From: an uncultured Nitrospinota bacterium
GTDB taxonomy: Bacteria; UBA8248
Direction of reading: 5' to 3'
Assembly: GCA_947258645.1 (NCBI GenBank)
Contig: CAMYJL010000002.1
Location: 1 to 38,192 of the forward strand
Length of the DNA: 38,192 bases
The stretch's first letter is position 1, and every line of letters starts with the position of its first letter. The translations under genes were made by a program, and so were the position numbers. Positions 34,660 through 38,192 of the stretch are shown piece after piece. The notes beneath the pieces are model-generated. The model had not been told where the DNA came from. It searched no databases and was given only the letters and a program-made list of their open reading frames with translations.

Positions 34660-35961
34660 TCAAAGCTCGATGAGGTCCATCGCGTCCGGCGTCAGCACGC
34701 GTGGGCCGTTCTCTTCGACGATGACCTGCGGGCCGAATTCCATGAAAATCCGGTCCTCATGGGCTGCCTTCACCTCGATGGCGAGGGACATTCCCGCCTC
34801 GACCGTGAGCTCTTTCATGAATTGATACCGATCTCCCGCGAGATCGCGCCACTCCTCGTTTTCTTCCAGCGAGCCCTCTACCGGTCGCTCCCGCCAAGGC
34901 ATCTTCCTCGGGATGTTCCCGGCCACAATCGTCGTCGCGGGCGGCTCGATGCCGTCCACTCCCGTTCCGTGCACCTGGGGAATCTCGTGATAGTAGCCCC
35001 GGCTCAGGATGGGCGTGTCGATCAGGCGGTCCACCTCGGCCCACGAGGCGCCGGGCCTGAGCACCTCGAGCGCTATCTGCGTCGCCTCATGGACGGCCTC
35101 GCGCAGGGGCCTGTACTCCTCATCCAGCCGGCCCAGCGAGACCGCGATGTGCGGGTGGCTCCAGTAACCCCCGTAGCGGGCGTAGTGGCCGATGTGCAGC
35201 ACATCCCCCGAGCGGAGGATCCGATCGGTCGGCCGGTGGTTCACCGGGAAACCCTTCCCCGCGTTGAGGATAGTCCAGTGGTCCCGCCCGAGTTCGCTTC
35301 CCGCCCGGAGCCCCGCGCAGGTCATCTCCACGCACAGATCGTCCTCGCGCACCCCGGGCCGCGCGTGGCGCAGGACAGCGTCGATCTCCACGTTGACCAT
35401 CTCGGAGGCCTTCTCGAGCATGGCGATCTCCTCCGGGCTCTTGATCATCCGGAGCCGGGTGAGGATGTCCGAAGCGTCGCAGAAGGTGGCGTCCGGCAGG
35501 AGGCGCTGAAGATTGCGGAAAGTCATGTAGGGAATCGCGCCCTCGGCGGCGTAGCCCCCGCCGATCAGGCCGACGACGCCGATCCGGCCCTTCTGATATC
35601 CCAGGTCCGAGATCGCCTCGGCCGCGACGACGCTGACCTTCCCCTCGTGGCCCCGGTAGCGCACCCCCTCCCAGCAGCACTCGGTGTACCACTTCCCCCA
35701 GTTCTGGAGGAGCCAGTAGGTCATGGGGCTTCCATTGCGGGGAAAGACCAGGCTCCGCTCGCCGTAGTCGCCGTTGTCGAGCCAGCGGACGTTCCCGTTC
35801 GCGTTGTAGCCCCGCCCGGCGACCACGAGGCAGTCGATTCCCCGCTCGTCCATCGCCTCGCGCGTGGCCGCCCACCGGCGGTCGCGCTCCGCCAGCGAAA
35901 ACGACGCGCTCGGGACACCCACGCGGCCCTCGCGCGGAATGAACCTCGGATCGGTGACCAT
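34660..35961 (-). CDS. M24 (pita-bread fold) protein with degenerate metal site
   Basis: 433 residues: a creatinase-type N-terminal domain (about 20-170) and a C-terminal pita-bread domain (about 175-425). Normal M24 enzymes bind two metals through Asp, Asp, His, Glu, Glu. Here the first Asp position reads LHIGHYARYGGYW (Gly258), the second is His269 in YWSHPHIAV, the His is kept (His331 in VHGTGVDGIEPP), the first Glu is kept (Glu396 in MSLAIEV), and the last Glu falls at Gly410 in EFGPQVIVEENG. So three of five ligands are lost by my alignment. Creatinase is a metal-free member of the same fold, so a non-peptidase activity is possible. AGGAAGG lies upstream; it is downstream of the STAS-like gene. 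Confidence 0.85.
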   Translation of the reverse strand: MVTDPRFIPREGRVGVPSASFSLAERDRRWAATREAMDERGIDCLVVAGRGYNANGNVRWLDNGDYGERSLVFPRNGSPMTYWLLQNWGKWYTECCWEGVRYRGHEGKVSVVAAEAISDLGYQKGRIGVVGLIGGGYAAEGAIPYMTFRNLQRLLPDATFCDASDILTRLRMIKSPEEIAMLEKASEMVNVEIDAVLRHARPGVREDDLCVEMTCAGLRAGSELGRDHWTILNAGKGFPVNHRPTDRILRSGDVLHIGHYARYGGYWSHPHIAVSLGRLDEEYRPLREAVHEATQIALEVLRPGASWAEVDRLIDTPILSRGYYHEIPQVHGTGVDGIEPPATTIVAGNIPRKMPWRERPVEGSLEENEEWRDLAGDRYQFMKELTVEAGMSLAIEVKAAHEDRIFMEFGPQVIVEENGPRVLTPDAMDLIEL

Positions 35962-35975
35962 GTTCGCTTTCCTTC

Positions 35976-36359
35976 CTAACCCGCCACGCCCTCTTCCTCG
36001 CGCGGCTCGACGAGCTCCAGACGGGTGTCGCCCGCCAGCATGCCCACCCGGTAGATGGAATGCGCCAGAACCTGGGGGGAGCGGATAAGCCGCACCCGCT
36101 TAAAGCGCTCTAAGAGAAGTCGCACGGCATCCACCATCTGTGCGGTGGCGCTGCCGTCGAGTAGTTCGGTTTCTTCCAGGAAAAGCGCGGCCGTGCGACC
36201 GCCACCCGGCTCGGCCTTCAGCGCAGCGAGCACCCGGGCTGTACTGACGGCATTCAGATCCCCCCGAATGATGAACCAGGCCTCCTCATCGGCGTCAGTC
36301 CGCATCAACTCGAACGCGTCCTCTGAGATCAGCGCCCTGAGGTGCTCCCCTTCCGGCAT
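35976..36359 (-). CDS. Small STAS-like domain protein
   Basis: 127 residues. After about 18 residues the pattern is that of a STAS (anti-sigma factor antagonist) domain: AWFIIRGDLNAVSTARVLAAL (strand then helix), TAALFLEETELLDGSATAQMVDAV (strand with the LDxS loop, where the phosphorylatable Ser usually sits), RVRLIRSPQVLAHSIYRVGM, and a final strand LELVEPREEE. The match is by pattern and weak in identity; it could be an unrelated alpha/beta protein. The ATG lies 12 bases after the Gfo/Idh stop without a clear ribosome site, so it is probably translated by coupling. Its role in a metabolic cluster is unclear. Confidence 0.6.
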   Translation of the reverse strand: MPEGEHLRALISEDAFELMRTDADEEAWFIIRGDLNAVSTARVLAALKAEPGGGRTAALFLEETELLDGSATAQMVDAVRLLLERFKRVRLIRSPQVLAHSIYRVGMLAGDTRLELVEPREEEGVAG

Positions 36360-36371
36360 GAGATGGCCGGC

Positions 36372-37448
36372 CTAGCTGAGGGGAAGCTCGACGGGCTGGT
36401 TCGTGGCCGCGCTCTTCTCGATGGCGAGCGTCACCTCGAGCGTGGTCCGTGCCTCGTCGGGCTTGGTGTTCGGAATGGCGCGGCCGGTGGCGGCGTGCTC
36501 GAGGAACAGGCGCGTCTCGTCGCGCATGGGGCCCCAGAACTCCCCGAGGGACCAGTCGCCCGCCATCATCGATTCGAGAAAAACCACGTCCGAGGAAGCG
36601 TCCGGCGCGTAGGGAGAGGGCATGCCCTTGTTGGTTGCGAGGATGACGCCCTTGTGGGAGTCGTCGATGGTGATGGCCCCCTCCGAGCCCATGATGTCCA
36701 TCCCCATCGTGGTGATGTGCGCGGGCCAGTTGTCCGGGAAAATCCACGAACACCCGAAATTGATGTTGCTTCCGTCATCCAGCGTCACGATCGCCCAGGC
36801 CCAGTCGCCCACGTTGTTGGGATGCGGAAAAATCTTGCTCCCCCCCTGCGCGTACACCTTGACGGGCTTTCGCCCCTCGAAATACCAGAGCCCGATATCG
36901 ACGACGTAGGTCAGCGTATCGGTCACCGGGCTGGCGTGGGGCGAGCGCTTGTAGATTTCCGCGCCGTTGCTCTTCGGGTTGTAGAGCACCATCCGCGAGG
37001 TGAGCAGCTTCCCCAGCCGGCCCTGGCTGATCTGCTCCTTCGCATTGAGATAACGGCGCCGGAGACGCTGGGTGTAGCCGACATGGAGGTCGCCGTCATG
37101 CTTCCGCACGGCCTCGATGATCTGGTCCGCGCGCTCCAGGGAAAGCTCGATCGGTTTTTCGACCAGCACCGTCTTGCCCAGCTCGAGCGCCCGGCAGACC
37201 GGGTCAGCGTGCGCGTGCTCGGGCGTCGAGACGATCACCGCCTCGACATCGGGATGGGTCAGGACAGCTTCGTTGTCCATGGAATGAAAATCGGCCTTCA
37301 CCTCCTCCGCGACCAGTTTCACCCGATCCCCGTCGGGGTCGGACAGCGCCAGAAAACCCGCCCGCTGATCCCCGGCCACGAGATTCGCGCGCAGGCGGCC
37401 CATGCGCCCACTGCCGATGATGCCAACACCCACTTTCCTGAGAGCCAT
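36372..37448 (-). CDS. Gfo/Idh/MocA family oxidoreductase
   Basis: 358 residues. The N-terminal Rossmann fold has VGVGIIGSGRMG (6-17), AVIVSTPEHAHADPV and the catalytic-lysine motif VLVEKPIELS; then the C-terminal alpha/beta domain with GYTQRLRRRYLNAKE, NINFGCSWIFPDNWP and GSEGAITIDD. Members oxidise or reduce sugars, inositols and other polyols with NAD(P); which one is not evident. A His of the usual DxxxH motif is replaced in DTLTYVVDIGLWYF. The ATG has AAAGGA upstream, 3 bases after the stop of a paralogue, and the two are likely a heteromer or successive enzymes (inference). Confidence 0.92.
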   Translation of the reverse strand: MALRKVGVGIIGSGRMGRLRANLVAGDQRAGFLALSDPDGDRVKLVAEEVKADFHSMDNEAVLTHPDVEAVIVSTPEHAHADPVCRALELGKTVLVEKPIELSLERADQIIEAVRKHDGDLHVGYTQRLRRRYLNAKEQISQGRLGKLLTSRMVLYNPKSNGAEIYKRSPHASPVTDTLTYVVDIGLWYFEGRKPVKVYAQGGSKIFPHPNNVGDWAWAIVTLDDGSNINFGCSWIFPDNWPAHITTMGMDIMGSEGAITIDDSHKGVILATNKGMPSPYAPDASSDVVFLESMMAGDWSLGEFWGPMRDETRLFLEHAATGRAIPNTKPDEARTTLEVTLAIEKSAATNQPVELPLS

Positions 37449-37451
37449 TCG

Positions 37452-38192
37452 TTATCCTTTCAGCGGAAGATCCACGAGGCCGCCGCCCTCCCGGGCGCTC
37501 CTCTCCATCGCCAGCGTGAGTTCCAGGACATCCCGCCCGGCTTCGGCGCCGCAAAGCGGAACATCGCGGCCGTCCCGCACCCGCTCGACGAAAAGGCGGG
37601 TCTCGTCCCGCATGGGGCCGTAAAAATCCCCCTGCGCCCAGTCGCCCGGCATGGTCGAGCCGAGGAAAGCGACTTCAGCGCCCGGGACGGGCGACGGCGT
37701 CCCCCGGTTCGAAACCATCATCACATCCCTGTGCCCGTCGTCCACCACGACGGACCCCTCGCTCCCGAATATCTCCATCCCTATCGAGCAGATGTAGGCC
37801 GGCCAGCGCTCGGGCAAAATCCAGGAACACCCCATATTCGCCGCCGCACCGTCCTCGAACGTCACGATGGCCCAGCCGTAATCGCCGATACCATCCGGCT
37901 GATCCGGAAAAATCTCGCCCCCGCCCTGCGCGTAAACGCGTACGGCCCTGCGGGGAGCGAAAAACCACAGCGCCATGTCCGCCATATAGGTGAGCGAGTT
38001 AGTGAAAGGGCTCACCATCTCCGAACGGGCGTACATCTGCCGGGCGTCGGCCCGGGAGTGATAGATCGAAAGCCGGGCGGCCATCACCTCGCCCAGGCGG
38101 CCGGCCTCGATCTGCTCCTTGATCGAAACATACCGGCGACGGAGGCGCTGGGTGTAGCCGATGAAAAGATCGGCCCCCGATTCCGCCCGAGC
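37452..38192 (-). CDS. Gfo/Idh/MocA family oxidoreductase (5' part off the window)
   Basis: The C-terminal 246 residues of a second Gfo/Idh/MocA protein; the NAD-binding half is beyond the window edge. It is a clear paralogue of the next gene: FIGYTQRLRRRYVSIKEQ, NSLTYMADMALWFFAPRRAVRVYAQGG, NMGCSWILPERWPA, GSEGSVVVDDGH and FYGPMRDETRLFVE line up with equivalent stretches there. It ends in DLPLKG, 3 bases before the downstream start. An ATG inside the frame at about 38084 is not the start, because matching sequence continues upstream to the window end. Confidence 0.9.
   Translation of the reverse strand, partial: ARAESGADLFIGYTQRLRRRYVSIKEQIEAGRLGEVMAARLSIYHSRADARQMYARSEMVSPFTNSLTYMADMALWFFAPRRAVRVYAQGGGEIFPDQPDGIGDYGWAIVTFEDGAAANMGCSWILPERWPAYICSIGMEIFGSEGSVVVDDGHRDVMMVSNRGTPSPVPGAEVAFLGSTMPGDWAQGDFYGPMRDETRLFVERVRDGRDVPLCGAEAGRDVLELTLAMERSAREGGGLVDLPLKG

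Follow-up and report, generated by a model that had tools for sequence, protein, structure and literature searches.

An M24-fold protein from an uncultured Nitrospinota bacterium that appears to have lost the two-metal center of its peptidase relatives

The window, by which we mean the whole 38,192-nucleotide stretch of DNA that we analyzed, comes from an uncultured Nitrospinota bacterium. On its minus strand, an open reading frame of 433 amino acids (34660..35961) runs from an ATG start at 35961 to a TGA stop at 34660. The encoded protein belongs to the Peptidase M24 fold family, as it exceeds the Pfam cut-offs for both Peptidase_M24 (PF00557; 6.1e-19, 69.1 bits versus a cut-off of 23) and Creatinase_N (PF01321; 1.2e-6, 29.6 bits versus a cut-off of 22). 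The N-terminal Creatinase_N domain spans residues 29 to 173 (35443..35877, minus strand) and contains three motifs that are strongly conserved in the alignment of orthologs: RWLDxGDYxER, LQNWGKW, and RYRGHEGK. The catalytic "pita-bread" domain, which is also recognizable in the predicted structure, was matched by PF00557 at residues 181 to 398 (34768..35421, minus strand).

Three neighboring genes are on the same strand. Directly upstream is an open reading frame of 127 amino acids (35976..36359), which lies between the M24 gene and a gene for a Gfo/Idh/MocA oxidoreductase of 358 amino acids (36372..37448). A second Gfo/Idh/MocA oxidoreductase (37452..38192) is cut at the end of the window; both oxidoreductases were recognized by Pfam and NCBIfam. 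A nitroreductase and an M50 peptidase are also encoded nearby. The 127-amino-acid open reading frame had no match in Pfam or NCBIfam. It has relatives in L012 (49%) and in L040 (62%, partial), and it is absent in L039.

M24 metallopeptidases have five metal-ligand positions: Asp, Asp, His, Glu, and Glu. In the aminopeptidase P (APP) of Escherichia coli, Asp271, His354, Glu383, and Glu406 form the tight site, and Asp260, Asp271, and Glu406 form the loose site (PMC5774706). At the five positions, the window protein has Gly258, His269, His331, Glu396, and Gly410 (all codons on the minus strand). Gly258 (35188..35190) replaces Asp260, which binds at the loose site only, while His269 (35155..35157) and Gly410 (34732..34734) replace Asp271 and Glu406, which bind both metals. 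The other two ligands, both of the tight site, are kept: His331 (34969..34971) corresponds to His354, and Glu396 (34774..34776) corresponds to Glu383. Two residues past the second ligand position is His271 (35149..35151), the second His of an invariant His-Pro-His.

An earlier note on this DNA, made from the sequence alone, had claimed the same three losses and the retention of the His and one Glu, and three separate alignments agree with it. An alignment to solved prolidases, which were the best sequence matches in the PDB, places Gly258 and His269 at the two Asp positions. Alignments with 27 other M24 proteins from the same genome and with methionine aminopeptidases from viral contigs each cover all five positions. 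By these alignments, the window protein does not have the five ligands of an M24 metallopeptidase such as prolidase or APP.

It also does not have the helper residues of these peptidases (His243, His350, His361, and Arg404 in APP; the roles of the three His are given in PMC5774706). Asn241 (35239..35241, minus strand) is at the position of His243, the catalytic His of the peptidase; Ile327 replaces His350; Ile338 (34948..34950, minus strand) replaces His361, the second active-site His; and residue 408, at the position of Arg404, is Glu, Val, Cys, or Ile among the orthologs. As judged from the alignments, the loss of the two-metal center of M24 peptidases, with retention of the fold, is confirmed. 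Because the helper residues are replaced as well, the protein is probably not a peptidase.

Of 18 genomes in the same family, 13 have the gene, and it was absent, at E = 1e-45, from the 368 other genomes that we searched. Full-length orthologs, which are 63 to 89% identical to the window protein, were found in 11 genomes, and another copy is cut by the end of a contig. All 13 aligned sequences have Gly258, His269, Pro270, and His271, and all 12 sequences that are long enough also have His331, Glu396, and Gly410. Given this fixation across orthologs, the ligand substitutions are not due to chance or to sequencing error. The gene is under purifying selection, with a dN/dS of about 0.08 to 0.28 in the pairs that allowed its calculation.

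A scan of 84,980 species with the peptides LQNWGKW and RYRGHEGK, which are specific to this group and would miss more distant relatives, found 11 copies. All of these are in metagenome-assembled genomes titled Nitrospinota, Nitrospinae, Nitrospinaceae, or unnamed bacterium, and one is from assembly UBA8248. The GTDB phylum UBA8248, or "Ca. Ibidiota," comprises 28 genomes, whose marine sources include sponges (PMC11382960). The 13 genomes with orthologs, which belong to one family, are very probably members of this phylum. When we searched 372 genomes for the His-Pro-His motif with a DNA pattern, the matches were scattered.

With 12 close orthologs as input, the structure was at first predicted poorly (pLDDT of 52.7), and that model was replaced. 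The second prediction (AF2) used 36 rows, including M24 proteins from viral contigs and methionine aminopeptidases; it had a mean pLDDT of 78 and a pTM of 0.82, with blocks of 77 to 97 around the active-site positions, and we used it for the fold search. Foldseek found 238 matches in the PDB at E ≤ 0.001, and the top matches listed were all M24 folds. The best match was to substrate-bound EutD/DoeA (E = 4.6e-22), followed by prolidases, creatinase, and the dimethylsulfoniopropionate (DMSP) lyase DddP (4S01, 4RZY, and 4B28). The earlier note's view that the M24 fold is retained holds for the Pfam matches and for the model alike, and the window protein is predicted to adopt the pita-bread fold.

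The known protein that the window protein most resembles is the ectoine hydrolase EutD/DoeA (PDB 6TWJ, 6TWK, and 6YO9), which also combines Creatinase_N with a pita-bread domain and has also lost the two-metal ligands. Besides being the best fold match, EutD/DoeA has the best-scoring NCBIfam model (TIGR02993). However, the score was 61.6 bits versus an equivalog cut-off of 613, and no NCBIfam model came near its cut-off for the window protein. Identity in the fold alignment is about 20%, and the five ligand positions, which are Gly, His, His, Glu, and Gly in the window protein, are Glu, Pro, Tyr, Met, and Thr in DoeA. Because this pattern differs, the details of DoeA cannot be transferred to the window protein. 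The gene neighborhoods differ too: in Shinella, the gene for DoeA lies between eutC and doeB, whereas no eut or doe genes are beside the window gene.

Creatinase (PDB 1CHM and 7YTO) shares the fold (E of about 1e-19), with 18 to 19% identity in the fold alignment. Creatinase is metal free and, of the five ligands, retains the His and one of the two Glu residues. The substrate and acid-base residues of creatinase are His232 and Glu262, which would correspond to Asn241 and His271 of the window protein. Prolidase and APP (M24B) share the two-domain architecture and the fold, as well as His331 and Glu396, but three of their five ligands and the helper residues are replaced. DddP, like the window protein, has the M24 fold, which it uses for chemistry other than peptide hydrolysis, in marine settings. 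Unlike the window protein, DddP keeps a two-iron center with six ligands (PMC4108388), and no DddP model matched the window protein.

The genome of the window (G000) has 28 matches to the M24 family, in 28 places. Twelve of these proteins have the complete ligand set, 3 have a nearly complete set, and 13 lack it. The nearly complete ones have one Gln, one Cys, and one Glu for Asp, respectively, and the last of these is cut by a contig end. The usual pattern in the 13 proteins without the ligand set, and in their relatives, is Glu, Gln, His, Glu or Gln, and Gly. Among the M24 proteins that we compared, the pattern of Gly, His, His, Glu, and Gly occurs only in the window group. In particular, the branch relatives have Gln at position 269 and mostly Gln at position 396, so the combination of His269 and Glu396 is special to the window group.

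In a maximum-likelihood tree, the M24 proteins that lack the ligands, other than the DoeA group, form one branch (support of 99/98), which joins DoeA and two DoeA-like proteins (93/81). Both the ligand columns and some long branches were part of the alignment behind this tree. For a second tree, we left out ten columns of the active site and seven rows, which were mostly long. The window group, which sits on a long stem, remained with the ligand-lacking branch (88/89), whereas the node uniting the branch with DoeA fell to 63/51. Because of this difference, we consider the branch to be fairly safe and its closeness to DoeA to be only moderately supported. The window protein is one of the 13 M24 proteins of its genome that lack the ligand set, and most of these appear to form a single old branch that falls toward DoeA within the family. 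When we scanned viral contigs for relatives, one full-length member of the branch (L078) turned up, and the rest were mostly methionine aminopeptidases; a further motif scan found no relatives. An apparent 787-amino-acid fusion of an M24 protein in L034 was discounted as an artefact of the reading frame.

The neighborhood of the gene differs between genera, and we found no conserved clue to the substrate around the orthologs. The earlier note had taken the two Gfo/Idh genes to suggest a small-molecule hydrolase. Both genes are real, and a small-molecule enzyme other than a peptidase is our best reading of the window protein, but these neighbors are weak evidence for it. They adjoin only a few of the orthologs, beside the nearest relatives; they were not found beside the orthologs from the sponge-associated genus, nor directly beside the ortholog in L044. 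We rejected them as a clue to the substrate because they are not conserved across orthologs. The 127-amino-acid open reading frame and the nitroreductase gene likewise accompany only the nearest relatives. In L044, which contains a distant ortholog, the M24 gene follows 90 bp after the end of an MFS transporter gene. Other members of the ligand-lacking branch adjoin Opp/Dpp-type ABC importers, an IclR regulator, or MFS transporters. These transporter neighbors fit with the uptake and use of small molecules. One region of the window's genome (L196; G000:C6:14001-33090) contains four ligand-lacking M24 genes along with an Opp/Dpp-type ABC importer, an IclR regulator, an MFS transporter, and an alpha/beta hydrolase.

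We lean toward the view that the window protein is an M24-fold enzyme outside the peptidases that has no two-metal center and acts on a small molecule by acid-base chemistry. The cleft of the pita-bread domain would bind a small polar molecule, and the conserved residues His269, His271, His331, and Glu396 would provide acid-base catalysis. The reaction would most simply be the hydrolysis of a C-N bond. If creatinase's His232 does fall on Asn241, then the base in the window protein would have to be another His. In support of this reading, the ligand losses are fixed in every comparable ortholog and dN/dS is low. The helper residues have changed too, and the trees, the best NCBIfam model, and the best fold match all lie on the side of DoeA. 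We infer the enzymatic activity, the independence from metal, and the type of bond from these comparisons.

Instead of being metal free, the protein could hold one metal with His269, His331, and Glu396, perhaps joined by His271. We view such a single-metal enzyme, using Fe, Zn, or Mn, as a tentative alternative. The loose site would have been erased and the tight site rebuilt: Asp260, the only loose-site ligand that is not shared, is gone, and possible donors remain at three of the four tight-site positions, although the shared Glu406 is lost as well. Side chains at every second position of a strand face the same side, so His271 would be close to the candidate site. Furthermore, the four putative donors are invariant together among the orthologs, and the pairing of His269 with Glu396 distinguishes the window group from its branch relatives. 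On the other hand, creatinase has the same pair of His and Glu and binds no metal. Also, the motif occurs without the carboxylate in L061, a lone relative in which His269 and His271 are combined with Gln396. The literature that we searched did not name any metal site with two His and one carboxylate on the M24 fold. A single-metal site, if real, would point to a type of reaction that is new for this fold.

A less probable alternative, which we consider unlikely, is that the protein is a noncatalytic binding protein, or pseudoenzyme, whose fold is kept for binding a ligand or for contacts with other proteins, as in the PA2G4/Ebp1 branch of M24. M24 pseudoenzymes that are not peptidases are known (PMC3888471), and the metal ligands and the helper residues were lost together, as a pseudoenzyme would explain. 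However, the polar residues His269, His271, His331, and Glu396 are among the most conserved in the protein and are present in every comparable ortholog, and such conservation in an active site suggests chemistry or at least tight binding of a ligand. Finally, it is very improbable that this is an ordinary two-metal peptidase whose ligands were misread or have moved to nearby acidic residues: Asp253 and other conserved Asp or Glu residues do lie near the site, but the agreement of the three alignments and the loss of the helper residues contradict this, and we ruled out both of the substitutes that the earlier note had named, as Asp253, the Asp of a "GD" before the first ligand, is shared by M24 proteins whose metal sites are intact, and Glu408 varies among the orthologs.

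To return to the small-molecule enzyme that we favor, its altered active site is unusual and has its own set of residues, but it does not represent a new principle. The protein is part of a sizeable branch of non-peptidase M24 proteins. In this one uncultured lineage, about half of the M24 "peptidases" are without the canonical ligands. An entire branch is therefore probably mislabeled by automated annotations such as "Xaa-Pro peptidase family protein." The window group also offers a clear test of whether a few replacements (Gly258, His269, and Gly410) turn a two-metal site into a one-metal or metal-free site.

The M24 family is expanded in the lineage of the window, and a few of its other members stand out. 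L061 (G000:C212), the second M24 protein with His-Pro-His at residues 269 to 271, has Glu258 as well as Gln396, and its gene is beside a Dpp-type importer. The paralogs L075 and L076 (G000:C273 and C221) do not have even the conserved His331. Two relatives from the sponge group have, about 2 kb downstream of the M24 gene, an additional, broken copy of its 3' end: at 11067-11360 in L043 (42% identity over 98 residues) and at 11365-11493 in L045 (63% identity over 43 residues). These broken copies are the trace of a duplication.
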